Shown piece by piece: positions 11,398 to 35,951 of a DNA stretch of 64,000 bases. The DNA is from Aquamicrobium lusatiense (GTDB lineage: Bacteria; Pseudomonadota; Alphaproteobacteria; Rhizobiales; Rhizobiaceae), in contig NZ_JACHEU010000001.1 of NCBI RefSeq assembly GCF_014201615.1, forward strand, positions 1,135,631 through 1,199,630. The letters run 5' to 3'. Under the pieces are notes generated by a model. It was not told where the DNA came from. It searched no databases and worked only from the letters and a program-made list of their open reading frames with translations. Positions within the stretch are counted from its first letter, which is position 1, and every line of letters begins with the position of its first letter. The position numbers were made by a program, and so were the translations under genes.

Positions 11398-11419
11398 GCA
11401 ATAGTTGGCGGGGACGGCA

Positions 11420-13612: not shown

Positions 13613-14823
13613 CGGGCCTGCGCCAGCTTTCCATCTTCTGCCTTAATATGGTGCAGGGCTTGCCTGCGAGCTTCTTTGCGATCGGCCTGCCTGCTCTGCT
13701 GCGGGAGGCAGGTGCCGGACTGGACCTTGTCTCGCTGGCCTATCTTATGTGGGCACCCTGGGCGCTTAAATGGCTGTGGGGCCCGTTGCTGGACCAGGAC
13801 GCAACGCTGTTCAGCGCCCTGTTCGGACGGATCGCATATCTGCCGGCTATAATGGCGGGTTCATTCCTGCTGCTCATTGCCTTTCCGCCGTCAAGCTTTG
13901 CCTGGCCCATCTTTGTCATTGGAATCGCCTGCTCATTTGTCGGAGCGACCCTGCAAATGGTGCTCGGCCGGTGGATCGTGGCGATTGAGCCTGATGAACG
14001 AGGCCGCGCAAGGCTTAACGCCATGCAGGTCGCCGGCATGATCACGGGGGCCATGATCGGCGGTACTCTGGTCGTGCTGTTATCTGATCTGCTGTCATGG
14101 GCATGGGCGGTCGTTTCCATCGTCGTGTTGATTCTTCTGTCAGGCCTGCCATTCCTGCTGACCCAGCAGGAGCGGATTGGCGTTCCGGGGCAGGCAGGCA
14201 TCGATGGCAGAAAGGAGGCCTCCTCTCCTCCGGGAGCGGCACGTTCCTTCTTCCTTCGCTCAGGTGTTACGCTTCTCATGGCGCTGATGTTCATGTCGGA
14301 TATTGCGACAGGCGTTGACGTGTTGCTGACCGCATTTCTGGTCGATACCGGCTACAGCGCGGTTCGGGCGACATTCCTTCTCAACACGCTGGCACTGGCA
14401 ATTACTGTTCCCGTCACCTTCCTGACCGGGCAGGTTCTGCAATATGTATCAACGGAAAAGGTTCTGGGCGCGCTGCTGATCGTCAAGGCAGCGATATTCG
14501 TGACGCTCGGTATTGGAGGTTTTTCCGGTCCTGCGCTGTCAGCTGGACTGGCTGTTGCCGCTGTGGTCGCGGCCTCGGCTGTCGCGATTGCCTACTGGCA
14601 GATCTACATGCGGTTTTCATCGCCCGATCATGCCGCGACCGACATCGGGTTCATGACCTCCATCCGGGTCGTGTTCCTGATGATCGGAGGAATTGGAGCG
14701 GGACAGGTATCAGGGGCTCTGGGCTACGCAGGAATTTTCACGATAGCCGCTGCGTTGGCGACGATGGCAGCCGCGTTCGCTTTCCTGCAACTGCGCGACA
14801 AAGGGCTTGTTGCCGTCCCATGA
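13606..14823 (+). CDS. MFS transporter of the RhtX/FptX siderophore permease type
   Basis: A 405-residue inner-membrane protein with 12 predicted helices. The N-terminal pattern GLPASFFAIGLPALLREAG followed by MWAPWALKWLWGPLLD matches RhtX/FptX-type permeases that carry ferric siderophores across the inner membrane as single proteins. It overlaps the receptor stop (ATGGTAG) and the esterase start (ATGA), so the three genes form one coupled operon. It is paralogous to the MFS gene at 33511-34692, which shares VVWAPSALKWLWAPWFD. Confidence 0.88.
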   Translation: MVAGLRQLSIFCLNMVQGLPASFFAIGLPALLREAGAGLDLVSLAYLMWAPWALKWLWGPLLDQDATLFSALFGRIAYLPAIMAGSFLLLIAFPPSSFAWPIFVIGIACSFVGATLQMVLGRWIVAIEPDERGRARLNAMQVAGMITGAMIGGTLVVLLSDLLSWAWAVVSIVVLILLSGLPFLLTQQERIGVPGQAGIDGRKEASSPPGAARSFFLRSGVTLLMALMFMSDIATGVDVLLTAFLVDTGYSAVRATFLLNTLALAITVPVTFLTGQVLQYVSTEKVLGALLIVKAAIFVTLGIGGFSGPALSAGLAVAAVVAASAVAIAYWQIYMRFSSPDHAATDIGFMTSIRVVFLMIGGIGAGQVSGALGYAGIFTIAAALATMAAAFAFLQLRDKGLVAVP

Positions 14824-15728
14824 TTTTGCACATGTTCAAGATCATGGCACATTATCGCGCGCAGGCTTTCGGCCAGTGGCGGGTTGTCCGCCGGTCGGAA
14901 AAGGTAAGCGAGCCTTTGCTGCATAGTGTATCGCGAGGCTACGCACTGCCCGACACGCATGAGTTTTCAGCGACGGGCCCCAGCGGCGAGCATCGGATTT
15001 TCGTTTTTGTGCCGCCCGGCTCGCCGCCGCCGTCCGGGTATCCGTTGCTGTTTGTCGTCGACGCCAACGCGATATTTGGCGCCGCAGTCGATGCCGCCCG
15101 CCTGCAGATGCCATGGCCGGATGTCAGTGGGGTTACCCCCTTCATGATCGTGGGTGTGGGGTATCCCGGCTCCACTCCCTTCGATCATCGCAGGCGCTCC
15201 TGGGATCTGGCTCCCTCTCTGAGAAATCCCACCTGGAAATCTCCGCTTGGCCTCCCCTGGCATCAGCCCGGCGGTGCAGATGACTTCATCGATTTCCTGA
15301 CCGGCCCGCTGCTCAACGCCCTGTGCGCACGCTATCCGGTTGCAAGAGCGCGTCGGGGGATATGCGGCCTCTCTCTTGGCGGCACATTCGCGCTCTATGC
15401 ATTTGCTATCCGCCATGACGCATTTTCGTTTCACGCAGCTGTCAGCTCCGCTCTTTGGTTCGACGGCGGACGGATTGTGGAAGAACTGAAAGCTTTGTCG
15501 CCGGGCTCGAGATTGACTGCAAGCGCATTCATCTGCGTTGGGAAAGAGGAGATACCAGACAATTCTGAGATCTGCGACATGATGCTTGCAGGGTCACGGG
15601 ATGCGGCGAAAGAGATCGAAAGAACAGGGTCGCCCGTCACCTATCGCGAATGCGAAGGTGAGAACCATCAGTCGACGATTATCGCGATGATGCCGCAGTT
15701 AATGAAGCATGCATCCCGGCACCTGTAA
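14820..15728 (+). CDS. Alpha/beta-hydrolase esterase, probable siderophore hydrolase
   Basis: A 302-residue esterase of the Fes/IroE (esterase D-like) type. The nucleophile elbow is GLSLGG, with an early strand PLLFVVDANAIFG and a C-terminal His in GENHQSTI as the likely triad base. No signal peptide, so cytoplasmic. Coupled to the MFS permease by an ATGA overlap, it probably cleaves an imported siderophore to release iron. Ester siderophores (enterobactin-like) would be the natural substrate, but nothing here fixes the ligand. Confidence 0.82.
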   Translation: MILHMFKIMAHYRAQAFGQWRVVRRSEKVSEPLLHSVSRGYALPDTHEFSATGPSGEHRIFVFVPPGSPPPSGYPLLFVVDANAIFGAAVDAARLQMPWPDVSGVTPFMIVGVGYPGSTPFDHRRRSWDLAPSLRNPTWKSPLGLPWHQPGGADDFIDFLTGPLLNALCARYPVARARRGICGLSLGGTFALYAFAIRHDAFSFHAAVSSALWFDGGRIVEELKALSPGSRLTASAFICVGKEEIPDNSEICDMMLAGSRDAAKEIERTGSPVTYRECEGENHQSTIIAMMPQLMKHASRHL

Positions 15729-15921: not shown

Positions 15922-16989
15922 TTATGAAAGCAGGCGTTCTCCGGAGTGCGGGTCGAAGAGATGCAGGGCATCGGTGTTCGCATTGAGATGGATCGTGTCC
16001 CCCGGCTTCACCGGCAGCCGCTCCCGCACCACGCATGTGACATTCTGTATGCCGCATTGCGCCATCACGAGCGTTTCCGAGCCGGTAGGCTCCACCACCG
16101 CGACTTCCGCCGGTATCCCCTCGGAAGCGATCGTCAGATGTTCGGGGCGGATGCCGAGCACGACGTGCTGCCTATCTTCGAGGCCATGCGCTTCGCCAAG
16201 ATCCATAGCGAAGCCTTCCGGCCCCGAGAATGTCGCTCGCTGCCCGAGGCGAACAGTACCTTCGATGAAATTCATGGATGGCGAACCGATGAAACCGGCA
16301 ACGAAGAGGTTACCGGGCCTGTCGTACAGGTCGAGCGGAGTGCCGATCTGTTCCACGACGCCATTGTGCATGACCACGATGCGGTCGGCCATGGTCATGG
16401 CCTCGACCTGATCGTGGGTGACATAGACGGTCGTGGTGCGCAGCCGCTGGTGGAGGGACTTGATCTCGCTGCGCATGGTGACCCGCAGCTTGGCGTCGAG
16501 ATTGGACAGGGGCTCGTCGAACAGGAAGACCTGAGGATCGCGCACCGTGGCGCGGCCCATGGCGACGCGCTGGCGCTGGCCGCCCGACAACTGGCGCGGA
16601 TACCGGTCGAGCAGGGCTGACAGGCCGAGGATCCCGGCAGCCTGTTCGATGCGCTTGTCGATCTCCTGCGCCGCCATCTTCCGCAGCCTCAGGGCGAAGG
16701 CCATGTTCTCGCGAACGGTCATGTGCGGATAGAGCGCGTAGTTCTGGAATACCATGGCGATGTCGCGATCCTTCGGGGCGACATCGTTGATGATGCGGCT
16801 GCCGATGCGGATGGAACCATCGGTGATGCTTTCCAGCCCCGCGATCATCCGCAGCAGGGTGGACTTGCCGCAGCCCGAAGGCCCGACCAGCACCATGAAT
16901 TCTCCATCCTCGATGTCCACGGAAACACCGTGCATCACATCCAGATTGCCGTAGGACTTGCGAATGTTGTCGATGGTGACGGGCGCCAT
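15922..16989 (-). CDS. ABC transporter ATP-binding protein, sugar importer (UgpC/MsmK type)
   Basis: A 355-residue ATPase: Walker [10 protein letters not shown] at residues 36-44, Q-loop [12 protein letters not shown], signature [14 protein letters not shown], Walker [18 protein letters not shown]-loop VTHDQVEAM, then a C-terminal TOBE/MalK-type domain ([10 protein letters not shown]). It energises the sugar importer formed with the products of 22718, 25106 and 26089. The start at 16989 follows a GGGAG site; the in-frame extension to 17463 is a shadow of the nagA-like gene. Last gene of the minus-strand operon starting at 22443. Confidence 0.95.
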
Positions 16990-17042
16990 GATGTTCTCCC
17001 TCGTTATGTTTTTCTCGTTCGTCTGTCCGGGCCCTGCATCCG

Positions 17043-18218
17043 TCAGAGCGCCTGCCCGTCGCCGAACACGCGGGCGACCGAAAGGTCGTGCTCCAGAAGC
17101 AGGAGATCGGCCTTGCCGCCGACCTCCAGCCGTCCGATTCCATGGCCAAGGCCCATTGCGTCGGCGGGAATGGAGGTCGCCATGGCCAGCGCCCGCTCCA
17201 GCGGCAAGCCAATTGCCCGCACCAGCCGGGCGACCGAACGAGCCATGTCCACATGTGCGCCGGCCAGCGATCCGCTGCGGTTGACGAGGCGGCCGCCTTC
17301 GACGCGTATCGTCTCGCGGTAGAGGACGAACGAGTCGGGCCCGCCGACCGTTGCCATCGCGTCGGAAACGATGAAGGTGCGGTCCGGGCGCTTCCTTGCA
17401 CGCAGGGAAATCCGCGCCGTCGCATCGCTCACATGGAAACCATCCACGATCATGCCGCACCATGCAGCGCTGTCGAGCGCGCTGCCGACCACGCCGGGAT
17501 CGCGCGAGGTCATCGGCGTCATGGCATTGTGAAGATGGGTGAAGCAGTTGACGCCAGCTTCGAGTGCGGCTTCTGTCTCACAGCCCGTTGCGGCGGTGTG
17601 GCCCGCAGAGACGACGACGCCCATGGACCTAAGCTCTGTGATGACACCATCGGGCACACATTCCGGCGCCAGCGTCAGCATGGTGGGCACGCCGGCCTCA
17701 CGCAGCCTGCGGGCGCTCGCCATGGTGCGGGCGTCGAACGGGCGGATCAGCTCTGCCGAGTGTGTTCCCTTGCGGGCCACGTTGATGTGGGGCCCCTCTA
17801 TATGCATGCCCGCCACGCCATGCCTGCCCATCGTGGCTATCACGGCATCGACCGCCATGTCGAGCCTGTCGGCCGTGTCGGTGATGAAGGTCGGCAGCCA
17901 GGCCGTCGTTCCAAGACGGCGATGCGCCTCGCCGATGATGGCGAGCGCCTCAGGCGACGGATCGTTGTTGAACATCACGCCGCCACCGCCATTGACCTGC
18001 AGATCGACGAAACCGGGGCAGGCGAGAAGCGCGGTGCGAACCACCGTTTGCGTGGACGGTATGGCGCCCTGAGGGATGATCGCCGTGATGCGGCCGGCTT
18101 CGATATGCAGCGCGCATCCATTGCGCCACCTTGTGCCGTCGAAGAGCCGGTCGGGCAGCAGCCACCACCCGCCTTCATCTCCGGCTCCGCCGGTGATCTG
18201 TCTTCCGGGTTCGCTCAT
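17043..18218 (-). CDS. N-acetylhexosamine-6-phosphate deacetylase (NagA/AgaA family)
   Basis: A 391-residue amidohydrolase-fold enzyme. The metal/catalytic residues are seen in HIEGPHIN (Glu), VSAGHTAA (His), CFTHLHNAM (His) and the catalytic Asp in VSDAMATVG. It removes acetate from GlcNAc-6-P or GalNAc-6-P in the cytoplasm. The family alone does not separate the two substrates; the neighbouring AgaS-type and GatZ-type genes favour GalNAc-6-P (AgaA role). The ATG at 18218 overlaps the stop of the upstream gene (ATGA). Confidence 0.92.
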
Positions 18219-19537
18219 GCGCGCAGCTTCTGTTCCGGTTCGGGTTGTCCCGCTTGCGGCGCAACCGAGAGATAGGGAGCCAGTGCGGACTGGATCTCCG
18301 CGAGGATCAGGGACTTGCCGAGCGGATAGCCCGATGCGCGAAGTGTTTCCGCGCGGTCCACGACGGCGTGCGGGAAATACTGGAGAAGGGCGGGTTCGGC
18401 CGGTGACAGCCCGGCGAAGGACCGTTCCAGCGCGGCCACGGCCGCCACCGCCTCGGGCAGGTTCCAGTAGTAGCGGATGCGGTCCGCATAGGCGTAGTGA
18501 CGCAGGATCCTGATGGTCGTGTCGTCGGCGCCAGCATAATGCGTTTTCCAGTGGTCTGGACGGGCGAGCATCAGGTTTTCCATCACGGCCGGCAGGGGCG
18601 TGGAGGAAGCGTCGCTGCGATAGAGGCGCACCAGCTCGTCGAGGGCGTAGAGCGCGCGGCGGTAGGCGAAGGTGAGGGCGGGGCCGACCTTCAGAATGGC
18701 GAAGTGGCGCCGCGCCAGAGCATGGAACACGGCGTCCGGCTGGTAATCGGTCGAATGTGCCTCGAATGCCATTTCCGGGTGAGCGTCGAGCGCACGCGAC
18801 AGATCGTCGGGAGCGGCCGGATCCAGAACGTCTATATGGTCGGGGCCGAATTCGACGCCCGGCTGGACCACCAGCCCCGCCACACGCGCAAACGCCTGAT
18901 CAAGCCGGCGCTTGCGGAAAGCGGCAGCATGGCAGGCGATGGTGGCCGAAGCCCGCTCCGGCGTCGTCACCACCAGCGACTGGTGATCGTCTTCGCCCCG
19001 CGCCCCGCCGGGCGGCGGCACCTCTGTTCCGATGATGTAGCTGATGTCGGAAGGGTTGGCGGCGCTGCGTTCGCATATCTCGGCAAGTTCCGCCGCACGT
19101 TCTGCAGCAAGCAGGTCGCCGACCTGCGCGGGCTCGCCGCGGCAGCCTTCGGAGCAGTCGAGATGGATCTTGGTGAAGCCGGCCCGCACATAGGCGGCCA
19201 TCATGTCGCGGGCTTTGGCCATGGCCGTGGCGGAGTCCTCGCGCCGCCATGCCTGCGGTCCAAGGTGATCGCCGCCGAAATGAATCTGTCCGCGATCGAC
19301 GCCGAGCCGGTCGCAGAAGCCGTGAACGAAGGCGATGAAGTCGGCGGGCTGCATGCCGGTGTAGCCGCCGAACTGGTTCACCTGATTGCTGGTGGCCTCG
19401 ACCAGCAGCGTTTTGCCTTCGTCGCGCGCCAGCAGCAGCGAAGCGGTGAGGACGTCAGGATGAGCTGAGCAGACCGCGGTAAGCGCGACGGCCTCCCCGG
19501 CCCGGTTGCGGCGGATCACATCTTGCAGGGCTTTCAT
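18215..19537 (-). CDS. GatZ/KbaZ-family protein, probable D-tagatose-6-phosphate 4-epimerase
   Basis: A 440-residue protein of the family once called the non-catalytic subunit of tagatose-bisphosphate aldolase (PF08013): LLVEATSNQVNQFGGYTGM, IHFGGDHLGPQAW, HLDCSEGC and VGPALTFAYRRALYAL. The aldolase partner (GatY/KbaY) is missing from the locus. A family member in Agrobacterium tumefaciens was shown to epimerise tagatose-6-P to fructose-6-P; the stand-alone context here supports that role rather than aldolase assistance. Both ends overlap neighbours by 4 bases, so it is fully coupled in the operon. The start at 19537 is preferred over an upstream extension through the kinase gene. Confidence 0.87.
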   Translation of the reverse strand: MKALQDVIRRNRAGEAVALTAVCSAHPDVLTASLLLARDEGKTLLVEATSNQVNQFGGYTGMQPADFIAFVHGFCDRLGVDRGQIHFGGDHLGPQAWRREDSATAMAKARDMMAAYVRAGFTKIHLDCSEGCRGEPAQVGDLLAAERAAELAEICERSAANPSDISYIIGTEVPPPGGARGEDDHQSLVVTTPERASATIACHAAAFRKRRLDQAFARVAGLVVQPGVEFGPDHIDVLDPAAPDDLSRALDAHPEMAFEAHSTDYQPDAVFHALARRHFAILKVGPALTFAYRRALYALDELVRLYRSDASSTPLPAVMENLMLARPDHWKTHYAGADDTTIRILRHYAYADRIRYYWNLPEAVAAVAALERSFAGLSPAEPALLQYFPHAVVDRAETLRASGYPLGKSLILAEIQSALAPYLSVAPQAGQPEPEQKLRA

Positions 19538-20475
19538 GAACTTGCTCGTGAAGGTTGGTGGTCCGGGCGCGCCAGCATGGCCGCACCACGCACGCCGCTG
19601 CTGTCGCCGAAACGGGCGAGGGCTATCGAGGGGGTGCGGGTCGGCGCGAGCTTCGCGCTTGCGAAGGCTTGGAGGATGCGATCGGCAATGCCGGGAATCA
19701 GCGTGACGCCGCCGCCCAGAACGACGCGTTCCGGGTCCAGTGTGAGCTGAAGGGTGTGGATGAGTTCGCCAGCCAGGCGCGACCAAGCGGCGATCGTGCG
19801 TTCGGCACCTGCATCGCCGGCCGCCAGCCCGGCCGCCACCGTCTCGCCCGTTGCGGGCGCGGCGTTGAAGGCGGCGGAGATGCGGGCGATGCCGGGGCCG
19901 GACAGATAGGTTTCATAGCACCCTTTCCGGCCGCAGCCGCAGGCAAGCTGTTCAAGCTTCAGATCGTCGAGCAGCCATGCCGGTATGCCGATATGCCCGA
20001 CCTCGCCGGGAAGGCCGGTCCAGCCGCGCGACAGGCGGCCATCGACGCATATGCCACCTCCAACGCCGGTGCCGATGATCAGGCCGAATACGGTCGCCGC
20101 ACCTTCGCCCGCGCCGCCATTGGCTTCCGACAGGGCAAAGCACTTGCAATCGTTCTCGACGGGCAGAAGGGTTCCGACGCGCCGGAAGAGATCCTGTGCC
20201 AGCGGCCTGTTCATCGCGGCGAGGTTGGCCGTATAGGCAAGGCCGCTGGTGTGGTCGACCAGTCCGGGAATGCCGACGCCGATGCGCAGGCCGCTATCGC
20301 CGGCTGCATTGCGCAGCCATTCGACCTGATCACCCAGTGCGTCGATCAGGGCGCCGTAGCCTGATGGCGTCGGTATGCGGCGTCGTTCGAGCGCGTTGAA
20401 GCCACCGTCGTGCAGGCAGGCTTCGATCTTTGTGCCGCCGAGATCAATGCCGCCGTACATCGTCGTCGCCGTCAT
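19534..20475 (-). CDS. ROK-family N-acetylhexosamine kinase (AgaK/NagK-like)
   Basis: A 313-residue ROK sugar kinase: ATP phosphate motif GIDLGGTKIEA, the ROK glycine-rich motif GTGVGGGI, EVGHIGI, and the zinc-binding CGCGRKGCYETYLSG. It phosphorylates the 6-OH of an imported N-acetylhexosamine. ROK kinases for GalNAc (AgaK) are known in proteobacterial Aga pathways. ATGs at 20475 and 20460 are both possible; the former overlaps the upstream gene by 32 bases. Substrate is inferred from the operon. Confidence 0.9.
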   Translation of the reverse strand: MTATTMYGGIDLGGTKIEACLHDGGFNALERRRIPTPSGYGALIDALGDQVEWLRNAAGDSGLRIGVGIPGLVDHTSGLAYTANLAAMNRPLAQDLFRRVGTLLPVENDCKCFALSEANGGAGEGAATVFGLIIGTGVGGGICVDGRLSRGWTGLPGEVGHIGIPAWLLDDLKLEQLACGCGRKGCYETYLSGPGIARISAAFNAAPATGETVAAGLAAGDAGAERTIAAWSRLAGELIHTLQLTLDPERVVLGGGVTLIPGIADRILQAFASAKLAPTRTPSIALARFGDSSGVRGAAMLARPDHQPSRASS

Positions 20476-21592
20476 AGGGGTAGAGGGTGACGCCGGAGAC
20501 GACGCGGTTCAGCTCGCCACCCTCGAACGGATTGTCGACGGTGATGCCGAGCGCCTCGCTCCAGCGCACCGCAAGCAGTTGCGGCAGCAGCACGTAGAGC
20601 ACCGCGCTCCACGCGTCGTTGCCCACGGGCTCCAGCTCGATGTCCGCACCGATGCCGGCGGGCCCGACGACCACCAGTTGGGAGCTTCCGAACTGGCGGC
20701 GGATTTCCCCGATCAGGTCGAGATCGTAACGGCGCGTATGGGGATGGATGGAGACGTTGGCGACGACCAGCGTTCTGTCGTTGAGGATGGCCTTGGGTCC
20801 GTGGCGGAAGCCCAGAGCCGACTCCCATGCCGTGGCGACGCGGCCCCGGGTGAGTTCGAGCACCTTCAGTCCGGATTCCCTCGCTATGCCGGTAAGCGCG
20901 CCGGAGCCGAGGAACACTGCCCGCTCCGGAGGCGAGGAAAGCCGTCTGGCCACGAAAGCTTCCACTGCCCCCAGCGTCTCCGCGGCCTTCTGCGCCAGTG
21001 CCCGCACCGAGGCGCGGATCAGGGCAGGCGAGGCCTTGTCGAGGCAGGCAAGGACGGTCAGCAGCATCGTGGTAAAGCTCGCCGTCATGGCAAAGCCCTG
21101 ATCGTGCGCACCGGCGGGCAGCACAACGGTCTTTTGCCCGCCTTCGCCCGGCCCCTTGCGGCGGGCCAGCTCGCTGTCACCGTTGCAGGTGATGTTGAGC
21201 CTGTCCGCCGCCGGCATGTGCCGGTCGAGAATGTCCAGAACGCCGGTCGTTTCCGAACTGTTGCCGCTGCGTCCGAAGGAGACGACGAGGACGCGTCGGT
21301 CGGTGACGATGAAGTCCTGCGGGGAGGAAACGAGATTGGTCGTGGCGATGGCACGGTGGCGGATGCCGGTGCGCGCTTCGAGATAGGCGCACACGGTTTC
21401 GCCGATGTAGGCGGACGTGCCGGCCCCGCACAGCCAGATCTCCTGTGGCGCGCGCTGGCGGATCCATTCGTGGATGTCCGCAGAATGCCGTGCCAGCTCC
21501 GCCGCGTACTCGCCCCATACGGCCGGCTGCGACTTGATCTCTTCCTCGGTCGTGCTGGCGCTGGAGGGCAGGTCGAGCTTGTGAACGTTCAT
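20444..21592 (-). CDS. AgaS-type SIS-domain aminosugar-6-phosphate deaminase/isomerase
   Basis: A 382-residue protein with two SIS domains. The first begins WLCGAGTSAYIGE and continues VSFGRSGNSSET; the second holds FLGSGALTGIARESGLKVLE. Length and arrangement match AgaS, the main galactosamine-6-P deaminase in E. coli and Shewanella, which yields tagatose-6-P and ammonia. A glutaminase domain is absent, so it is not GlmS. The start at 21592 shares one base with the regulator stop. The pairing with a GatZ-type protein downstream argues for the galacto series. Confidence 0.88.
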   Translation of the reverse strand: MNVHKLDLPSSASTTEEEIKSQPAVWGEYAAELARHSADIHEWIRQRAPQEIWLCGAGTSAYIGETVCAYLEARTGIRHRAIATTNLVSSPQDFIVTDRRVLVVSFGRSGNSSETTGVLDILDRHMPAADRLNITCNGDSELARRKGPGEGGQKTVVLPAGAHDQGFAMTASFTTMLLTVLACLDKASPALIRASVRALAQKAAETLGAVEAFVARRLSSPPERAVFLGSGALTGIARESGLKVLELTRGRVATAWESALGFRHGPKAILNDRTLVVANVSIHPHTRRYDLDLIGEIRRQFGSSQLVVVGPAGIGADIELEPVGNDAWSAVLYVLLPQLLAVRWSEALGITVDNPFEGGELNRVVSGVTLYPYDGDDDVRRH

Positions 21593-22443
21593 CAGCCATT
21601 TCCTTCCGGCGAGGGGTCGGCGCAAATGAGTTCCAGACCCATGTCCTGAATGAGATCGCGTGTCTGCCGGGGCAGGCGGGTGTCGGTGACGATGGTGTGC
21701 ACCTTGTCCAGCCCGCAGATGCGGTGCAGGGCCGGCGAACTGAACTTGCTGGCGTCGGCCAGCACCACGACGCGCTCGCTGGCCGCGATCATGGCGAGGT
21801 TCTGGTGCGCCTCGTCCTCATTGAAGGTGCTGAGGCCGATGACCGGATCGATGCTGTCGCTGCCGATATAGGCTGTGTCGAAATGCATCGTGCTCAGCGA
21901 CGTTTCGACCATGCGGCCGACCAGCGACATGGATTCGGAGCGGAACGTGCCGCCGGGCAGGATGATGGTGTGCTGGCGTGCCGTGCGCAGCGTCTGGACG
22001 ATGTTGAGGCCGGTCGTCAGGATGGTGAGGGGGCTGCCCTCGCGAAGCTCCTCGGCCATCATCTGCATGGTGGAGCCGGAATCGAGGATGATGCGCTGGT
22101 CGCTGCCCGCCAGGCCAGCCGCGCACCGGGCGATCGCGCGCTTGGCTGCGCGGTTGACGACATTCTTGTCCTCGATCAGCGGCTCGAAGATCTGCGCGCG
22201 GTCGGCAGCATTGCGCTCCGCCAGCGACATGGCGAGCGCGATGCGGAATTCAGGCACGCCGCTGCATCCATAGTGGCGGCAAAATCGGATGAGCGTCGGC
22301 TCGCTCACCCCGGTGGCGAGCGCCAGCTCGCGCACGGTCCTGTTCATGAAGCCTTCGCGCTCCTGCTCGATATAGGCCGCGATCCGGCGAAACGATTTGC
22401 TCAGTCGCGGCGCGTCGGCGGCGATGTTCTCAAAAAGCGACAT
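21592..22443 (-). CDS. Chimeric repressor: RpiR-type HTH with DeoR-type sugar-phosphate domain
   Basis: A 283-residue regulator. The N-terminal ~75 residues have the RpiR/MurR helix-turn-helix pattern (LSKSFRRIAAYIEQE; LALATGVSEPTLIRFCRHYG). RpiR proteins normally continue into an SIS domain, but here residues ~95-275 are a DeoR C-terminal sensor domain: DSGSTMQMMAEEL, ILTTGLNIVQTLR, ILPGGTFR, and VVLADASKF. It presumably senses a pathway phosphate intermediate and controls both divergent operons from the 22.44-22.72 kb gap. The start at 22443 follows a TGGAG site. Confidence 0.85.
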   Translation of the reverse strand: MSLFENIAADAPRLSKSFRRIAAYIEQEREGFMNRTVRELALATGVSEPTLIRFCRHYGCSGVPEFRIALAMSLAERNAADRAQIFEPLIEDKNVVNRAAKRAIARCAAGLAGSDQRIILDSGSTMQMMAEELREGSPLTILTTGLNIVQTLRTARQHTIILPGGTFRSESMSLVGRMVETSLSTMHFDTAYIGSDSIDPVIGLSTFNEDEAHQNLAMIAASERVVVLADASKFSSPALHRICGLDKVHTIVTDTRLPRQTRDLIQDMGLELICADPSPEGNG

Positions 22444-22544
22444 GGTCTCCACTTCATCTGCTCCGCCTGCGCGGAATGACATCATTGCCGGAACGCATTC
22501 CGGCAGCATGATATTTGCGCCCGATCAGCCTGACGCAGAATATA

Positions 22545-22570
22545 GTTTTGTTAAAAATTTTTGTCAAAAC
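22545..22570. promoter_or_regulatory. AT-rich palindrome between the divergent aminosugar operons
   Basis: GTTTTG (22545-22550) and CAAAAC (22565-22570) flank a central AAAAATTTTT, giving a 26-bp palindrome with only two mismatched pairs. Additional half-site copies follow (CAAAACCTAG, and GCAAAACTA about 30 bases on). It lies ~100 bases from the regulator start and ~150 bases from the binding-protein start, the natural place for the operator of the chimeric regulator. Confidence 0.55.
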
Positions 22571-22717
22571 CTAGTTGCGCACAAATTAAAATTACGCAAA
22601 ACTACATATCATAAAGCCGGGCAGACAACAAAGGCGCCATGGGGAGAACCGCTGCTGTCCGGGATGGAAGGCGCATCCAAAGGCATCCGGTTACGGACCA
22701 AACAAGGGAACGGCACG

Positions 22718-24016
22718 ATGACGATCAGGATCAACATGACCCGACGGACCGCGCTGGCGGTCATCGCAGCAACGGCAGCCGCCGGCATCGCAGGTTCTGC
22801 GCAGGCGCAGGAAAGCATCACCTACTGGTCGATGTGGAATTCGGGTGAACCCCAGCAAAAGGTCATCCAGAAGGCGATCGACTCCTTCACCAGGGACACG
22901 GGCATCGACGTCAAGGTGCAGTGGATCGGCCGTGACAATCTCAAAAAACTCGCACCCACGCTCAACTCGCCCGTGACGCCGGCCGATCTCGTGGACGGGG
23001 CACAGCGCAATGTCCGGGCGATCCTCGTGTCGACCGGCAGCCAGAGCGATCTCTCCCCGGTCTTCGAGTCCGAGATTCCGGGTGAGGCCGGCACGACCGT
23101 TGCCAGCGTGTTCCCGGATAAATATCTCGATTTCATCACCGCGGAGGGGGCGAAGTGGCTGGTGCCCTATGAGGTGATCACCTCGCAATGGTGGTATGAT
23201 GCCGCCTTCCTGCCGGAGGTTGAGAAGGCGCCGCCGAAGAACTGGGCGGATTTCGTGGCCTTCCTCGACAAGGCCAAGGAGAAAGGCGTTGCGCCGCTAG
23301 CCCTTGATGGCGACATTTCCAACTTCAACCTGTACTATTTCGCGGAAATCGCGGTGCGCCATCTGGGGCCGGGCAAGCTGCGCGAGGCAGTCGCTGATCC
23401 GACCGGCGAGGCCCTGAAGGATCCGCGCATCCTCGAGACCGCGAAGCAGATCGAGGCGCTGGTGAAGGGCGGCTATTTCGCGCCGGGATACAATGCCAGC
23501 AAGTGGCCGGCCATGCAGCAGCTCTGGGCCACCAACAAGGCGGCTGTCATCTTCAACGGTCCATGGATCGTCAGCGAGACGACCACCTATGCCGTGCCCG
23601 GGTTCAAGCCGCGCTCCTTCCCGATGCCGGACGTAGGCGAAGGCGCGCACCAGACGCAGGAAGTGTCCTTCATCGGCTTCGCCATCCCGAAGAAGGCCGC
23701 GAACCAGGAGGCGGCGCAAAAGTTCATCAGCTACTTCCTCGCCAAGGACAGGCTGGCAGGGATCGCCACGGACGCCAAGAACCTCACGCCTCGCGCCGAC
23801 ATTGCCGTTCCCGACGAACTGGCCCCCGCCAAGCAGGCGATCGAGACTTCGCCCGAGGTTCACAGCCAGTTCGACGGGCTGATCGATCTGGATGCAGACT
23901 ATACCGGCAAGGTGCTGATCCCGCTCGTCAACGAGCTTATCTTCGGCGTGAAGAGCGCGCAGGAGTTTCAGGATGCGCTGGTTGAGAATACGGTCACCTA
24001 CCGGCGTCTCAACTGA
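22718..24016 (+). CDS. ABC transporter solute-binding protein (sugar family 1)
   Basis: A 432-residue periplasmic protein. The signal peptide (1-30) contains MTRRTALAV, a twin-arginine-like pair, and ends AGSAQAQ. The mature part has the extracellular sugar-binding family-1 pattern (YWSMWNSGEPQQKVI; NKAAVIFNGPWIVSE). It captures the sugar for the importer. The ATG at 22718 has AGGGA upstream; a long in-frame extension to 22397 runs back through the regulator gene and is rejected. First gene of the plus-strand operon. Confidence 0.93.
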   Translation: MTIRINMTRRTALAVIAATAAAGIAGSAQAQESITYWSMWNSGEPQQKVIQKAIDSFTRDTGIDVKVQWIGRDNLKKLAPTLNSPVTPADLVDGAQRNVRAILVSTGSQSDLSPVFESEIPGEAGTTVASVFPDKYLDFITAEGAKWLVPYEVITSQWWYDAAFLPEVEKAPPKNWADFVAFLDKAKEKGVAPLALDGDISNFNLYYFAEIAVRHLGPGKLREAVADPTGEALKDPRILETAKQIEALVKGGYFAPGYNASKWPAMQQLWATNKAAVIFNGPWIVSETTTYAVPGFKPRSFPMPDVGEGAHQTQEVSFIGFAIPKKAANQEAAQKFISYFLAKDRLAGIATDAKNLTPRADIAVPDELAPAKQAIETSPEVHSQFDGLIDLDADYTGKVLIPLVNELIFGVKSAQEFQDALVENTVTYRRLN

Positions 24017-24080
24017 TCACGCACCATCCGCGGGCAGGCGCGGTGCCTGCCCGTCTCCATCGCATGATGAAGGCGAAGAC

Positions 24081-25109
24081 ATGAAGGACAATCTCAGGAC
24101 CCTGCGCTTCGGCATTGTCGGATGCGGCCTGCGCGGGGCGCTTTACGGGCGTATCCTCCAGCGCCTGCACGGCGTGGAAGTGGCCGCGCTGTTCGATGTC
24201 AGCCAGCCCACAGCGCGCCGGCTTGCCGAAGAGCTGGATGTGCCACTGGCTTCAAGCCTCGACGATCTGACGGGCCGCGATCTCGACGCGGTCGTGATCG
24301 CCACGCCCGACTTCGCGCATGTCGAGCCGGTGCTTGCCGCCACGGCGCGAAAGCTGCACATTTTCCTGGAAAAACCGGTTTCGACCTCGTCTGCGGATGC
24401 CCGCATCATTCGCGATTCCGTGGTCGGTTCCGGAGTGCTGTGCACCGTTGCCTGCATGAACCGATGGCACCCGGTTTTCGGCTCCCTGCTCGGCAGGGTC
24501 CGGGCCGGGGAGTTCGGTGCGGTCATCGCGCAGAACGTGCGGCTCAGCAACAGCCTTGCCGTTCCGTTGGGAATGCTGAAATGGGCAGCGGATTCTTCCC
24601 CCGGCTGGTTCCTCATGCCGCACTCGCTCGATATAGTGGGTGCTGCCGTCGGAGCCCAGCCGGCGCAGGTCTATGCGGCCGGCCGGCGCGGCCTTCTTGC
24701 TGCATCCGGCGTCGATACCTGGGACTCGCTGCAGGCAACCATCAGGTTCGCCGATGGCTCGACGGCCAATGCCGAATCCGTGTGGGTGCTGCCCGAGAAC
24801 TCGCCTTCCCTTGTCGACTTCCGATATGAGCTGATCGGCGAAAAAGCCGTGGCGCGGGTCGACGACCGGGACCAGGGGCTCGAAATCGTTTCCGACAAGC
24901 TCGCCCTGCCGCGGGTGCAGGTCCAGGAAATCGACGGCAGGATCGCGGGTCCCAACCTGCTCATGATCGAAACATTCGTGCAGTCGGTGCGCGAGGGCGT
25001 TCAGAAGGGGCCTGACGTCGTCCACTCGGCGTGGATCACCGAACTTATCGAGGCGATCCACATCAGTGCCGCCGAGGACCGGCCGGTGGATATCGGAGGT
25101 CCCGAATGA
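24081..25109 (+). CDS. Gfo/Idh/MocA-family NAD(P)-dependent oxidoreductase
   Basis: A 342-residue protein: Rossmann motif GIVGCGLRGALYG at about residue 11, DAVVIATPDFAHVEPV, then the family signature EKPVST, and an alpha/beta C-terminal substrate domain. Such enzymes oxidise, reduce or epimerise sugars, and some cleave glycosides by an NAD-dependent oxidation/elimination route. In this operon it may process the imported sugar or a linkage attached to it; its step in the pathway is not defined. The start at 24081 has GAAGG upstream, and the stop overlaps the next ATG. Confidence 0.88.
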   Translation: MKDNLRTLRFGIVGCGLRGALYGRILQRLHGVEVAALFDVSQPTARRLAEELDVPLASSLDDLTGRDLDAVVIATPDFAHVEPVLAATARKLHIFLEKPVSTSSADARIIRDSVVGSGVLCTVACMNRWHPVFGSLLGRVRAGEFGAVIAQNVRLSNSLAVPLGMLKWAADSSPGWFLMPHSLDIVGAAVGAQPAQVYAAGRRGLLAASGVDTWDSLQATIRFADGSTANAESVWVLPENSPSLVDFRYELIGEKAVARVDDRDQGLEIVSDKLALPRVQVQEIDGRIAGPNLLMIETFVQSVREGVQKGPDVVHSAWITELIEAIHISAAEDRPVDIGGPE

Positions 25110-26077
25110 CATCGGATGCCGGGATCACAGCGCAGGGACGCGCCGCCATGACGAGAGGTTCCTCCATTCGCACGACCGCGGCAGCCGTGGACCCGATGCA
25201 CGCTCCCCGCCGCAGGCTGTTCCTGTGGTTCGTGCTGCCGGCGCTGCTTCTCTATGTGGTCTTCTTCATACTGCCCACCATCGCCACGATCTGGATCAGC
25301 TTCCACAAATGGCCGGGCGCCGGCCCCATGGAATATGTCGGGCTGCGCAACTATGAGATCCTCTACTACGATCCGGTTTTCATCAGTTCCTTCATGAACA
25401 CGCTGAAGATCATCTTCATCGTCGGGGGCGCAACCTTCCTGATCAGCTTCGCCCTGACCATGGCCCTGCGCGAAATGGCGGGCCGCAAGGTGGTCAGGTC
25501 GGTCATCTTCTTCCCCAACATCCTGTCTGCGGTGGTGATCTCGATCCTGTGGGGGTTCCTGTTCCAGGCAAACGGCCTCGTCAACAGCATGCTGGCCGGC
25601 ATCGGCATCACCAGCCCGCCGGCATGGCTCAACGAGTCCAACCTCTTCAACGTGATCATGATCGGGCTGGTCTGGGTCTCGACCGGGTTCTACACCACCA
25701 TCCTGATGGCCGGCATCGACCGTATTCCCGCCGACCTCTACGAGGAGGCGGAGCTTGCGGGCGCCAACCCGCTTCAGCGCTTCTGGTATGTGACGCTGCC
25801 GCTCATGTGGGAGATCGTCGCCATGGCCGCGGTGCTGTGGACGATCAGCTCGATCAAGATATTCGAGTTCATCTATGCCTTTGCCGGCGGGGCAGGATAC
25901 CTGCCGTCCACCAAGGTCTGGAACACGGCGCTCTATTCCTACGCGGAAGCCTTCGCATCGCCGGGCACGCCGCGCTATGGCCCCGCCGCCGCCAGCGCCT
26001 TCGTCATGCTCGTTCTCGTCGCCGTTCTGGTCTGGCTCATACGCCGGGCGACGCGCCGCGAAGCTCTGCAGTTCTGA
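25106..26077 (+). CDS. ABC sugar transporter permease 1 (MalF-like)
   Basis: A 323-residue inner-membrane permease with six helices. The EAA loop that docks the ATPase is EEAELAGANPLQRF. A ~40-residue cytoplasmic N tail precedes the first helix. It overlaps the oxidoreductase stop by 4 bases (ATGA) and has GGAGG upstream. An internal ATG (25151) is a possible alternative start. It forms a heterodimer with the next gene's product. Confidence 0.94.
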   Translation: MTSDAGITAQGRAAMTRGSSIRTTAAAVDPMHAPRRRLFLWFVLPALLLYVVFFILPTIATIWISFHKWPGAGPMEYVGLRNYEILYYDPVFISSFMNTLKIIFIVGGATFLISFALTMALREMAGRKVVRSVIFFPNILSAVVISILWGFLFQANGLVNSMLAGIGITSPPAWLNESNLFNVIMIGLVWVSTGFYTTILMAGIDRIPADLYEEAELAGANPLQRFWYVTLPLMWEIVAMAAVLWTISSIKIFEFIYAFAGGAGYLPSTKVWNTALYSYAEAFASPGTPRYGPAAASAFVMLVLVAVLVWLIRRATRREALQF

Positions 26078-26088
26078 GGAGGCCGGCA

Positions 26089-26988
26089 ATGAGTTCCATC
26101 TCCACCCATACCCCACGCGGCCAGTCTTCCCTGCCGGGGACCCTGCGTGCCGGGCTTGAGCGCATTTCGCTGTCCCGGCTCGTGCCGGTCGTGCTCGTGT
26201 GGGCATTCGTTGCCTTCGACATCTTCGTGCTGGGCTGGCTCGTGCTGTCGTCGTTCAAGACGACGCGCGAGATCCTGGAGTTCCCTTGGTCGCTGCCGGC
26301 GGCCCTGCAATGGCAGAACTTCGAGGAGGCCTGGGTGGCCGGCAATTTCGGGGTGGCCGCCATGAACACCCTGATCCTGTCGGTGGCGACGGCCGGCGCC
26401 ACCATTATCATCGCGGCGCCCGCGGCCTATGCGCTGAGCAGGTTCAGGGTTCTGGGCGCCGAGCCGATCACCATGTTCTTCGCGCTCGGCATCGGCATTC
26501 CCGCACAGGTGATCGTGTTGCCGCTCTATGCGCTGATGAGCGCATTCGGCCTGGTCGACAGCCTGAGCGGCCTGTGGGTGCTCTACGTTGCCACGTCGCT
26601 TCCTTTCGCCGTGTTCTTCCTGACGGGCTTCTTCGCCACCATGCCGGCGGAGCTGGAGGAAGCGGCGGCGCTCGACGGTGCATCCCCGTTCCGGACCTTC
26701 TGGTCCATCATGCTGCCGATGGCGCGCTCGGGTATCATCACCCTGTTCATCCTCAACCTGATCGCGCACTGGAACGAGACGATCTTCGCGCTCGTTCTCC
26801 TCCAGTCGCAGGAAAAGGAAACGCTTCCGCTGGCACTGCTGAAGTTCCTGCAGCAGATGCAATACAACGCCGCCAACTGGGGCGGGCTGTTCGCCGGCAT
26901 GTGCATCGTCATCTTGCCCATACTCGCCATCTATTTCTGGCTGGGCAGCAGGATCATCGAGGGCTTCACCCTCGGCGGCAGCAAGTAG
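26089..26988 (+). CDS. ABC sugar transporter permease 2 (MalG-like)
   Basis: A 299-residue permease with six helices and the EAA loop LEEAAALDGASPFRTF. The first helix is WAFVAFDIFVLGWLVLSSF and the protein ends IIEGFTLGGSK, the usual tail of this family. The ATG follows GAGGAGGCC. It lies 11 bases after permease 1 and 14 bases before the sulfatase, in one operon. Confidence 0.94.
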   Translation: MSSISTHTPRGQSSLPGTLRAGLERISLSRLVPVVLVWAFVAFDIFVLGWLVLSSFKTTREILEFPWSLPAALQWQNFEEAWVAGNFGVAAMNTLILSVATAGATIIIAAPAAYALSRFRVLGAEPITMFFALGIGIPAQVIVLPLYALMSAFGLVDSLSGLWVLYVATSLPFAVFFLTGFFATMPAELEEAAALDGASPFRTFWSIMLPMARSGIITLFILNLIAHWNETIFALVLLQSQEKETLPLALLKFLQQMQYNAANWGGLFAGMCIVILPILAIYFWLGSRIIEGFTLGGSK

Positions 26989-27002
26989 GCGGAGGCACTG
27001 TC

Positions 27003-28436
27003 ATGGCGCGACCACGGCCCAACATTCTCATGATCGTTTCGGACGATCAGGGCCACTGGGCCATGAAGAATGCCGGAACGCCCGAGATCCATACCCCGAA
27101 CCTCGACGAACTGGCCCGCAACGGCAAGCGTCTGGACGCGCTCTACTGCGTATCGCCCGTATGCTCTCCGGCGCGCGCCTCGCTGCTGACGGGGCGCATT
27201 CCCTCCACCCATGGGGTGCATGACTGGATAAGGGCCGGCAACGCCGCAATCGAGACGGAGTTCCACAACCGCCTGATCCGCTATCTCGACAGGCATCGCA
27301 CCTTCGTCGAGATACTCGCTGCGAACGGCTATGTCTGCGGGCTGAGCGGCAAATGGCATCTGGGCAATACGCACGAGCCGCACAGGGGCTTTTCCTACTG
27401 GCAGGCCTATGCCACCGGTGGCGGCTCCTACCAGTCGGCGGCAATGATCCGCAACGGAGAGGTCCATCTGGAGCACGGCTATCTCACGGACATCATCACG
27501 GCCAATGCCCTGACCTTCATCGACCGGCAGCAGGGCAGCGATCCATGGTATCTGAGCGTACACTACACCGCGCCCCACGCCCCGTGGGAGGAAGCGGAGC
27601 ACAAGCCCGAGGACTACCGGCGCTATTATCCCGGCTGCGCCTTCGCGAGCCTGCCCGCTCCGCCCATGCATCCGGGCTTCTACGATCCGGCAAAGTTTCC
27701 CGAGGACGAGGATGCGCGTCGCCGTATTCTCGCCGGCTACTTCGCCGCCGTCACGGCCATGGACAGGGGCATCGGCATACTGCTCGAAGCGCTGGAGCGC
27801 AGCGGCCAGCTTGAGGACACGCTCGTCATATTCACGTCCGACAACGGCATGAACATGGGCCATCACGGCATATACGGAAAGGGCAACGGCACCTTCCCGC
27901 AGAACCTGCTCGAGACCTCGGTCAAAGTGCCGGGCATCTTCATGCAGCGCTCGCGCATCGCTCCGGGAACGCTGGACGGGCTTTACTCGCACTATGATTT
28001 CCTGCCGACAATCCTGTCATGGGCCGGACTGGGCGACCAGATACCGGCAGGCCTGCCCGGACGCGACATCGGTGCCGTGCTCGCATCCGACGCACCGGAA
28101 GAGGATGCCTATGTCGTGGTCTTCGATGAGTACGGTCCGAACCGGATGATCCGGGAGGGGCGCTGGAAATACATTCATCGCTATGCGGGCGGTTCGTGCG
28201 AGCTTTACGATCTGGCGGCCGATCCGGGGGAAGAGCGCAATCTCGCCGCAGATCCGGACAGGACAGCCGTCGTCGCGGGCCTGCTCGCGCGCATGAGCGA
28301 GTGGTTCGCCCGCTACGGAACCAGCCAGATGGATGGCTCACGCCTGCCGGTCATGGGCGGCGGGCAGATCGACAGGGTCGGTGGCCAAGGTGTCGACGGC
28401 GCCATTTTCGTCGACCATCAGGACCGCCTGCACTGA
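27003..28436 (+). CDS. Type I sulfatase, cytoplasmic (formylglycine-dependent)
   Basis: A 477-residue sulfatase. Metal ligands Asp14-Asp15 are in ILMIVSDDQG. The formylglycine motif Cys54-Ser-Pro-Ala-Arg58 lies in VCSPARASLLTGR. Further metal residues are in TSDNGMNMGHHG (around 278-289). It hydrolyses a sulfate ester after Cys54 is converted to formylglycine by a maturase not seen in the window. The protein begins directly with the catalytic strand and has no signal peptide, so desulfation should follow import. It is the last gene of the importer operon, which suggests the transported sugar is sulfated. Confidence 0.93.
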   Translation: MARPRPNILMIVSDDQGHWAMKNAGTPEIHTPNLDELARNGKRLDALYCVSPVCSPARASLLTGRIPSTHGVHDWIRAGNAAIETEFHNRLIRYLDRHRTFVEILAANGYVCGLSGKWHLGNTHEPHRGFSYWQAYATGGGSYQSAAMIRNGEVHLEHGYLTDIITANALTFIDRQQGSDPWYLSVHYTAPHAPWEEAEHKPEDYRRYYPGCAFASLPAPPMHPGFYDPAKFPEDEDARRRILAGYFAAVTAMDRGIGILLEALERSGQLEDTLVIFTSDNGMNMGHHGIYGKGNGTFPQNLLETSVKVPGIFMQRSRIAPGTLDGLYSHYDFLPTILSWAGLGDQIPAGLPGRDIGAVLASDAPEEDAYVVVFDEYGPNRMIREGRWKYIHRYAGGSCELYDLAADPGEERNLAADPDRTAVVAGLLARMSEWFARYGTSQMDGSRLPVMGGGQIDRVGGQGVDGAIFVDHQDRLH

Positions 28437-28893: not shown

Positions 28894-29627
28894 GCCCCGC
28901 CCGTCGTCGGCGCTGCGTCGATCATGTGATCATGTCATGGCGAAGTTCTCCGTCTGGGAATGCTTTGCTTGCAAGGTTTCTGGCCAGCACCGTTCGACCC
29001 GGCGTAAGAAACCGCAAGGCCGGCCCGATGAAGAGGCGTTGACCGCTGGCATCATCCGCCTCGCCTCCCGATATGGCCGCGATGGCTATCGTCGGATCAC
29101 CGCGATGCTGCGGTCCGAGGGCTGGGCGGTGAACGCCAGACGCATCGAGCCCATCTGGCGGCGGGAGGGGATGAAGGTTCCCCAGAAACAACCGAAGAGA
29201 GGCAGGCTCTGGCTGAATGACGGATCGTGCATCCGACTTCGGCCCAAACACCCCAACCATGTCTGGCCCTATGACTTTGTCGAGGGCCAGACCCACAATG
29301 GCAGGAAGTTCCGCATGCTCAACATTATCGATGAGTTCACCCGGGAGTGCCTGGCTATCCGGATCGATCGCAAGCTCAACTCGACCAATGTCATCGGCGT
29401 CCCGTCGGACTTGTTCATCTTGCGCGGTGTGCCCGGCCATGTTCATTCCGACAACGGCGGAGTTCATTGCCGAGGCGGTGCGCGAGTGGATCGTGGCCGT
29501 CGGCGCAAAGACCGCCTTGCTTGGCTACAAGCCGCCGGCACCGGAGGCCATTGTCTGGCCCGCGCCACCACGCGGATCAGCGCCACCATCTGCCCAGCCG
29601 ATGGCACACAAGCCAATCATGCATTAA
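28890..29627 (+). pseudogene. IS3-family transposase orfB, multiply broken
   Basis: The frame starts at -1 relative to orfA, as usual in IS3 elements. Lesions: an 8-bp tandem duplication (GATCATGT twice, 28920-28935) shifts the frame near the start. A second shift occurs at the conserved HSDNG motif (~29455), after which the plus frame reads EFIAEAVREWIVAVGAKTA. An internal deletion then joins KTA directly to LGYKPPAPEAIVWP, removing the segment with the catalytic Glu of the DDE triad. The first two DDE regions (around VWPYDFVEGQT and SDNG) are still recognisable. Confidence 0.85.
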
Positions 29628-29864
29628 GATTGAAACCGACCACCCTATGGGGACAGGTCAATTGCCGCCCCTTCTGGCCCAAATGCTTCCAAACTCTTTG
29701 GCAACTCTTTCGACCGTAGCCGGTGATGCTGCTGGGCGCGGGGCCGGCAGCCTGTAATTTGAATCTGAGTAATTTGTAACAGATGATAGCTGAAGTGCAT
29801 GCGAATTTCCTGACGTTTCTGCATTTGCCAGAAGGCTCCGCTTTGTAAAACGGAATATCCTTGG

Positions 29865-33497: not shown

Positions 33498-33510
33498 GAG
33501 CGTGGCTCCG

Positions 33511-35879: not shown

Positions 35880-35951
35880 CCATCATCGTTATCAAATCCG
35901 GAGTTTAAAAGTCAACTTAAACCGCTTCCGGGGCAGTGCAGGCCAGCGCCT

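Follow-up and report, generated by a model that had tools for sequence, protein, structure and literature searches.

A divergent ABC-importer gene cluster of Aquamicrobium lusatiense as a candidate route for sulfated N-acetylgalactosamine with a GatZ-epimerase exit to fructose-6-P

The Aga pathway for N-acetylgalactosamine (GalNAc) has been described for the aga/gam genes of Escherichia coli and for Shewanella, and a 2012 paper by Leyn reportedly deals with this pathway in Proteobacteria. The Shewanella version, as far as the excerpted source goes, contains AgaK, AgaA-II and AgaS. The cluster of Aquamicrobium lusatiense analyzed here has in common with these systems a kinase or PTS, a deacetylase and AgaS, and with E. 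coli also an AgaR-type regulator. It differs from them in that an ABC importer replaces the PTS or permease, a sulfatase is added, KbaY/GatY is absent, the GatZ protein is read as an epimerase, and the HTH of the regulator is of the RpiR type.

Two other systems resemble parts of the cluster. A galactitol/tagatose-6-P 4-epimerase route of Agrobacterium involving the GatZ family is cited in the available portion of PMC11907403. As proposed here, a GatZ-type protein in that route converts tagatose-6-P to fructose-6-P and an aldolase is unnecessary, whereas the tagatose-6-P comes from galactitol oxidation in Agrobacterium and would come from galactosamine-6-P (GalN-6-P) through AgaS in our cluster. 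The GAG cluster of Streptobacillus moniliformis, which serves chondroitin sulfate, likewise has an ABC importer for a sulfated GalNAc-containing sugar and a predicted cytosolic sulfatase; unlike the cluster described here it imports unsaturated disaccharides and has lyases and GH88, and the accessible sections of the report do not mention Aga genes (PMC5430744). A literature search that covered few subscription papers returned no paper in which a GatZ epimerase completes a GalNAc pathway, and none on a sulfatase of this kind together with AgaS.

The window, that is, the whole stretch of 64 kb that was analyzed, contains two divergent operons, at 15922-22443 on the minus strand and 22718-28436 on the plus strand (Table 1). 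The genes named in the preliminary description, and their arrangement around a single gap, were all found in place. The regulator and the Gfo/Idh/MocA dehydrogenase are two further genes that its list did not contain. Judging from the family scores (490 bits for GatZ_KbaZ, 170 for Sulfatase and 212 for ROK) and the conservation in Limimaricola litoreus, the gene set is not due to chance.

Table 1 Features of the divergent cluster, with positions in the window and the matches on which each reading is based
Feature	Position	Strand	Basis
ABC importer ATPase, MalK/UgpC type	15922..16989	-	NF008653 516.6 bits (cut-off 432)
NagA/AgaA-type N-acetylhexosamine-6-P deacetylase	17043..18218	-	TIGR00221 240.3 bits (cut-off 225.65)
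GatZ/KbaZ-family protein, read as D-tagatose-6-P 4-epimerase	18215..19537	-	PF08013 (GatZ_KbaZ) 490 bits
ROK sugar kinase, closest to GlcNAc kinases	19534..20475	-	PF00480 212 bits; GlcNAc kinases 7p7i/4db3 168-170 bits
AgaS-type galactosamine-6-P deaminase/isomerase (SIS)	20444..21592	-	TIGR02815 327 bits (curated cut-off 529.2); PDB 3c3j 233 bits
AgaR-like repressor, fusion of an RpiR-type HTH (PF01418) with a DeoR sensor domain (PF00455)	21592..22443	-	domain matches
Divergent regulatory gap	22444..22717		inverted CAAAACTA pair at 22543 (minus) and 22597 (plus); near-palindrome GTTTTGTTAAAAATTTTTGTCAAAAC at 22545
Sugar-binding protein, ABC importer	22718..24016	+	PF01547 79 bits; N-terminal signal peptide, by eye
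Gfo/Idh/MocA dehydrogenase, accessory	24081..25109	+	PF01408 78 bits; nearest solved structure 6z3c, 72 bits
ABC permease 1	25106..26077	+	67% to the Limimaricola litoreus locus (L002)
ABC permease 2	26089..26988	+	PF00528 68 bits; 67% to the Limimaricola litoreus locus (L002)
Type I sulfatase, cytosolic; formylglycine motif CSPAR (C54)	27003..28436	+	PF00884 (Sulfatase) 170 bits

The cluster is probably best read as a GalNAc (Aga) pathway that relies on an ABC importer and also includes a cytosolic sulfatase and a GatZ-epimerase exit to fructose-6-P. In the order of steps that we infer, sulfated GalNAc (4- or 6-sulfate, probably as the monosaccharide) would enter unmodified through the ABC importer, an O6 sulfate making PTS import unsuitable, and the formylglycine sulfatase would strip the sulfate in the cytosol. 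The ROK kinase would give GalNAc-6-P, the NagA-like enzyme would convert it to GalN-6-P, and AgaS would release ammonia and tagatose-6-P, which GatZ would epimerise at C4 to fructose-6-P; central metabolism would thus be reached without a tagatose-6-P kinase or a bisphosphate aldolase. Such a shortcut is not part of the GalNAc pathway as usually drawn. We are evenly divided on a wider proposal, namely that uptake of intact sulfated GalNAc, cytosolic desulfation and the AgaS plus GatZ 4-epimerase passage to fructose-6-P in place of kinase and bisphosphate aldolase form a general ABC-type GalNAc branch in bacteria lacking KbaY, a branch that would have a hybrid regulator and an operator of its own and would be spreading between classes. 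The locus would offer a direct test case for the role of GatZ/KbaZ proteins, long labelled "aldolase subunit" or "tagatose-6-P kinase", where the aldolase partner is absent; a plausible substrate would be at hand for a sulfatase subfamily that has had none; and the reading bears on how non-gut bacteria may use chondroitin-type sugars.

The C-x-P/A-x-R motif and the Ca site of the sulfatase (C54, R58, D14, D15, D280 and N281) are invariant in all 52 aligned sequences. In the structure model (pLDDT 89.4) the fold starts at residue 7 and so leaves no room for a signal peptide, and the protein is read as a cytosolic, formylglycine type I sulfatase. A gene with an FGE domain is present in the genome, its NCBIfam matches being other SUMF1-like proteins, all below cut-off. 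The S1 fold, FGly and the Ca site are common to this sulfatase, to S1_16 (4S-Gal/GalNAc) and to S1_11 (6S-GlcNAc). The 0-subsite Trp of S1_16 (W79 of AMOR_S1_16A) corresponds to W75, kept in 48 of the 52 sequences and Phe in 4, and, of the two His characteristic of S1_16, H125 corresponds to H119 in all 52, whereas the position of H149 falls in an alignment gap; the sulfatase is not filed as S1_16. The C-terminal Asp/Arg/His triad of S1_11, associated with GlcNAc-6S, is found in none of the 52, all of which have G292/G294/R381 instead. Reading the substrate from the fold (Foldseek, VIA-align) was also tried; many S1 subfamilies scored within a narrow range and therefore no subfamily was assigned in this way. 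Identity to solved S1 members is only 20-32%.

Neighbours of the sulfatase relatives point in more than one direction. In two Paenibacillus loci (L070 and L073) a PL8-type lyase occurs in the same locus as the relative, and the lyase of L070 is closest to solved chondroitinases (762 bits); such chondroitinase-type lyases were present in just 2 of 80 relatives' loci. The inspected loci also contain genes for alpha-fucosidase, LacZ-type GH2 or rhamnosidase, and the subfamily may therefore act on other sulfated sugars. Sulfated GalNAc is a plausible, indirectly supported substrate: the GalNAc part of this earlier proposal is supported by AgaS plus GatZ and the lack of NagB-I, while the sulfate part is weaker.

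The same neighbours lend some weight to a somewhat unlikely alternative, in which the core serves plain GalNAc or galactosamine and the sulfatase was added horizontally to act on some other sulfated sugar, such as galactose or fucose, which would share with the core its importer or no more than its promoter. Few genomes of the host's family carry the sulfatase (at E<=1e-90, 2 of 394 with the host counted), and in the second of them (G131, 47%) it is not surrounded by Aga genes. In the neighbourhood check proposed earlier for a sulfatase-AgaS-GatZ set, the set was found in L. litoreus; the nine other AgaS loci of the host's family had no sulfatase match, and both permeases were present in seven of them. 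Against the alternative, the sulfatase and the Aga genes have remained together in Limimaricola, where the cluster has nearly the same make-up (sulfatase 62%), and the regulator and the sulfatase appear, from matching lengths of the longest contig, to be linked in Brenneria and in two further pairs of entries. Among 295 genomes of Limimaricola's family, the starting genome was the only one found at E<=1e-120. Plasmid-borne relatives of the sulfatase were found in four records (43-49%); the one in Cetobacterium (H13) has genes for a ROK regulator and for a sodium symporter as neighbours, with no Aga genes annotated. At the DNA level 578 plasmid records showed similarity and none covered 80% of the query; the ten listed all match in the UgpC gene, over 6% of the query, and four further records matched at 95-99% identity.

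The desulfated sugar would leave the proposed route through GatZ. Its C23, E47, H91, E172, H261 and K283 agree at 6 of 6 positions with the set put forward for E. coli GatZ and cover the active-site Cys, a Glu, the His/Glu/His metal ligands and a Lys; being family-wide in GatZ/KbaZ and proposed from models, they alone cannot separate an epimerase from an aldolase subunit. For E. coli GatZ and KbaZ, a C4-epimerase activity interconverting fructose-6-P and tagatose-6-P is given in the excerpted text of PMC11907403. The tagatose-bisphosphate aldolase families searched were PF01116 and PF01791 (KbaY/GatY or LacD type). Neither was found in the host genome by searches that were positive in 11 and 13 of 14 controls, respectively. 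No tagatose-6-P kinase gene lies in the cluster, and none of the seven PfkB-family proteins of the genome matched an NCBIfam model named for this kinase; the general 1-PFK/hexose kinase and tagatose kinase models scored well below cut-off. The classical kinase/bisphosphate-aldolase exit thus looks unavailable, and the earlier statement that every expected step is encoded is wrong for the classical route. To be complete, the route needs GatZ to act as an epimerase yielding fructose-6-P, a point absent from that description, and from these genome searches and the six active-site residues the protein is best read as such.

It is quite improbable that GatZ is instead a non-catalytic tagatose-bisphosphate aldolase subunit (or a tagatose-6-P kinase), as annotated, with a distant unlinked aldolase or kinase completing the classical route. 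Such a role would agree with the name of TIGR02810 and with a 2025 review which, in its available part, gives only the kinase and aldolase steps (PMC12118421). Among eight genomes with GatZ beside AgaS, PF01116 is present in four, outside the AgaS stretch examined, and absent from the other four. The lack of the two aldolase families searched, PF01116 and PF01791, in the host and of any tagatose-6-P kinase-named model among its PfkB matches argues against it.

GalNAc as the sugar is supported by AgaS, the absence of NagB-I and the presence of a GlcNAc-type cluster elsewhere in the genome. In the PDB, the three closest relatives of AgaS are AgaS-type (tagatose-6-P ketose/aldose isomerase), although AgaS and GatZ both score under the NCBIfam cut-offs, and AgaS is taken as a signature of the GalNAc route in the consulted parts of two papers (PMC5583593; PMC3668189). 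The deacetylase gene, whose TIGR00221 score is above cut-off, is clustered with agaS. The only PF01182 match in the genome is directly behind a zwf-like gene (gene names by eye) and is therefore read as pgl, so that NagB-I was not found genome-wide. The earlier remark that NagB is missing thus holds for NagB-I, but a NagB-II-like SIS protein, below the cut-off of that model, occurs in another cluster, where the GlcNAc-type genes (NagA, NagB-II-like, NagK-like and ABC) stand on their own. The direction toward GalN-6-P and tagatose-6-P that had been drawn from AgaS and GatZ without NagB is strengthened. A sulfated GlcNAc route is very improbable: the kinase and the binding protein resemble GlcNAc/chito-type more than galacto-type proteins, the deacetylase fits the NagA model and the top match of the sulfatase, by Foldseek and by sequence search, is the GlcNAc-6-sulfatase 5g2v, but AgaS and GatZ would have no use for GlcNAc, which has the separate cluster, and the S1_11 triad is G/G/R throughout.

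The AgaR-like repressor would act on both operons from their common gap. Its sensor is of the DeoR type (AgaR model 164 bits, cut-off 260) and its HTH is of the rpiR type (HTH_6), not a DeoR HTH. A search for this hybrid gave 297 proteins at E<=1e-20, with both domains in all of the 120 listed; in a sample of the class, only the host genome had it (1 of 385 at E<=1e-40), and it is present at three AgaS loci of the host's family. The 8-mer CAAAACTA has two copies in the window, both in the divergent gap, and two in the 19.7 kb Limimaricola locus, both in the equivalent gap and inverted likewise; this rarity is not a probability, because the element was picked after both gaps had been viewed. 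No exact match was found in the gap stretches from four other loci (L095, L097, L098 and L100). The gap may contain the operator of the AgaR-like regulator.

In the plus-strand operon, the accessory dehydrogenase has no match in the Limimaricola locus. A GH109-type glycosidase role was considered for it and dropped, a known GH109 structure not being among 51 sequence matches. Of its 141 homologues, the 120 listed include no entry whose longest contig measures 380005, 12822 or 9280. The nearest solved relative of the binding protein is the chitin-oligosaccharide-binding NagB2, at just 45 bits. The placement of a sulfatase inside an ABC-importer operon, previously singled out as unusual, is less exceptional than that and has several parallels: the published Streptobacillus system, 9 of the 80 loci of sulfatase relatives, and a second cluster in the host genome in which a sulfatase lies near ABC genes.

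The two divergent operons (table) lie in a genome of 4.39 Mb in 13 contigs. The cluster is real and sensible, and reading it as an ABC-type GalNAc pathway, likely with an epimerase exit and a sulfatase for GalNAc sulfate, improves on the annotation.

Features of the cluster, its surroundings and related regions of the A. lusatiense genome
Feature	Location	Strand	Content or remark
First operon	15922-22443	minus	regulator, AgaS, ROK kinase, GatZ-like, NagA-like, ATPase
GatZ-like protein	18215-19537	minus	
Hybrid regulator	21592-22443	minus	
Gap	22444-22717		274 bases between the divergent operons
Second operon	22718-28436	plus	binding protein, dehydrogenase, two permeases, sulfatase
Gfo/Idh/MocA dehydrogenase	24081-25109	plus	between binding protein and permeases
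Sulfatase	27003-28436	plus	
Transposase-like ORF (IS3/rve-type)	28937-29719		follows the sulfatase; scores below the NCBIfam cut-off
Left flank	11405-15728		TonB receptor, MFS protein, esterase
Right flank	30087-38087		1187-aa ORF with two ABC exporter units, MFS, AraC-like regulator, TonB receptor
GlcNAc-type cluster	L120 2332-7823 (C1:1073000-1088000)		ABC genes, BadF/NagK-like kinase, GntR regulator, NagB-II-like SIS protein, NagA
Second ABC importer cluster	L121 2663-12381 (C3:308000-324000)		two sulfatases, DUF4432 protein, gene with FGE domain
PfkB gene with neighbour	L110 1381-3276		fructoselysine-6-kinase-like protein, SIS-like ORF

AgaS has been treated as the signature gene for the use of GalNAc or galactosamine (PMC5583593), and E. 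coli genetics assigned the galactosamine-6-P deaminase/isomerase to agaS, not agaI (PMC3668189). The preliminary description took AgaS and GatZ without NagB as pointing towards galactosamine, and this was borne out: the single NagB-I family match in the genome lies directly behind a zwf-like gene and was therefore read as pgl, and a separate GlcNAc-type cluster was found. That cluster also has a binding-protein gene, with adjoining permeases seen by eye, and its NagB-II-like and NagK-like proteins each scored below the cut-off of their own model. With these two proteins and a second NagA (42% identical to the NagA-like protein studied here) encoded elsewhere, GlcNAc seems to be handled by a locus of its own, which would leave the 15922-28436 cluster to a galacto sugar.

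The usual fate of tagatose-6-P is a kinase step followed by tagatose-bisphosphate aldolase. Searches for this aldolase gave zero matches in the genome, both with PF01116 (positive in 11 of 14 control genomes) and with PF01791 (positive in 13 of 14). The PfkB family gave eight matches in seven proteins (two within one gene), whose best NCBIfam matches were ribokinase, IolC-like (weak), fructokinase, IolC, fructoselysine-6-kinase, ThiD and PdxY; IolC, ThiD and PdxY reached the cut-off, the remaining four fell below it, and no model named for tagatose-6-P kinase was among the matches of these seven proteins (E<=1e-10). The fructoselysine-6-kinase-like protein lies beside an SIS-like ORF seen by eye, perhaps an Amadori-sugar cluster. 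The preliminary claim that every expected step is encoded did not hold for the classical kinase/aldolase exit. C4-epimerase activity between fructose-6-P and tagatose-6-P was reported in 2025 for E. coli GatZ and KbaZ, with active-site residues proposed from models (PMC11907403); the excerpted text of a 2025 review gives only the kinase and aldolase steps (PMC12118421). All six proposed residues are present in the window GatZ (C23, E47, H91, E172, H261 and K283, corresponding to C20, E44, H88, E171, H257 and K279 in E. coli). We read this protein as a putative tagatose-6-P 4-epimerase because both aldolase families searched are absent, the E. coli proteins have the activity and the residues are retained; the absent aldolase is the stronger argument, since the residues are conserved family-wide in GatZ/KbaZ. 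Among eight genomes with GatZ beside AgaS (six of the family, A. lusatiense and Limimaricola), PF01116 was absent in four, and the other four had one or two matches elsewhere.

The sulfatase carries a CSPAR motif, and in its structure model the first strand starts at residue 7, which would leave no room for a signal peptide. Among the best 80 of 304 relatives found, 76 have the CSPAR motif and 54 have the closest ATG no more than 12 residues from the N-terminal PN motif; for the remaining relatives the script scan picked up a different start codon, an incorrect motif or none at all. The script dropped 10 of the 80 loci, and 51 sequences chosen from the 70 usable rows were aligned with the window protein (n=52). 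Calcium and formylglycine residues are invariant in all 52. Where S1_16 enzymes have a Trp stacking against galacto sugars (PMC10154612, PMC11760155), 48 sequences carry Trp and four carry Phe, and the GlcNAc-6S triad of S1_11, with residues taken from PMC6994673, was found in none of the 52. Solved sulfatase structures share 20-32% identity with the window protein.

At 2 of the 80 loci, those of Paenibacillus plantarum (L070) and P. whitsoniae (L073), a PL8-type lyase was found about 6 kb away from the sulfatase, with ABC genes in the interval. Among solved proteins, the L070 lyase is closest to chondroitinases, and the L073 lyase is 63% identical to that of L070. Fucosidase, GH2, enolase-family or rhamnosidase genes at some of the four neighbour-scanned loci (L023, L056, L059, L070) weigh against the GalNAc-sulfate reading drawn from this chondroitinase-type lyase. 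Sulfated GalNAc is a likely substrate. An O6 sulfate, if present, would have to be removed before the kinase step, and PTS import would not suit a sugar sulfated there, as has been argued for disaccharides in Streptobacillus (PMC5430744). A sulfatase inside an ABC-importer operon had been considered unusual but proved less so than claimed: both permease matches lie near the sulfatase in 9 of the 80 loci, Limimaricola included, and the genome has a second, distinct cluster of this kind. The FGE-domain gene of the latter, whose NCBIfam matches are other SUMF1-like proteins below the cut-off, could mature the window sulfatase in trans.

Of 394 genomes sampled from the family, 10 gave an AgaS match, A. 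lusatiense among them, and 2 a sulfatase match; neither protein was found in the seven other same-genus genomes listed. At the nine other AgaS loci of the family, GatZ is present in six, both permeases in seven, a full-length hybrid regulator in three and the sulfatase in none, so an ABC-type Aga module can lack the sulfatase, and the form that includes it is the rarer one. Regulator and sulfatase relatives were also sought among 5.8 billion proteins. Brenneria gave both among the best matches, both 77% identical and both with a longest contig of 380005, and two further regulator/sulfatase pairs from this search have equal longest contigs (12822; 9280); we infer that the members of each pair share a contig.

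In Limimaricola litoreus the order is GatZ, ROK, AgaS, regulator, then binding protein, permeases, ATPase, sulfatase (62% identical to the window's) and a second sulfatase. GatZ is interrupted there by the contig end, and its remainder (window residues 199-423), followed by NagA (53%), lies at the end of another contig. The window dehydrogenase, which had no match at this locus, has a Gfo/Idh/MocA oxidoreductase as closest solved relative (72 bits) and may act as a redox glycosidase or an epimerase.

In the regulator, an RpiR-type HTH is fused to a DeoR sensor, and both domains occur in all 120 listed of 297 relatives, some of which are called aga operon or galactitol operon repressors by some sources. 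The 64 kb window holds two copies of the sequence CAAAACTA, inverted relative to each other and both inside the gap; the Limimaricola locus has two as well, both inside its gap. The gaps of four other loci gave no copy. The inverted pair, picked post hoc, is a candidate operator.

The ORF behind the sulfatase is possibly a transposase fragment. The two flanking sets, with genes called by eye except for two Pfam scans, are similar to each other and look like siderophore uptake. The A. lusatiense genome measures 4.4 Mb at 100% completeness, against 6.1-6.5 Mb in the seven same-genus genomes listed (G073, G155, G217, G271, G314, G351, G380).
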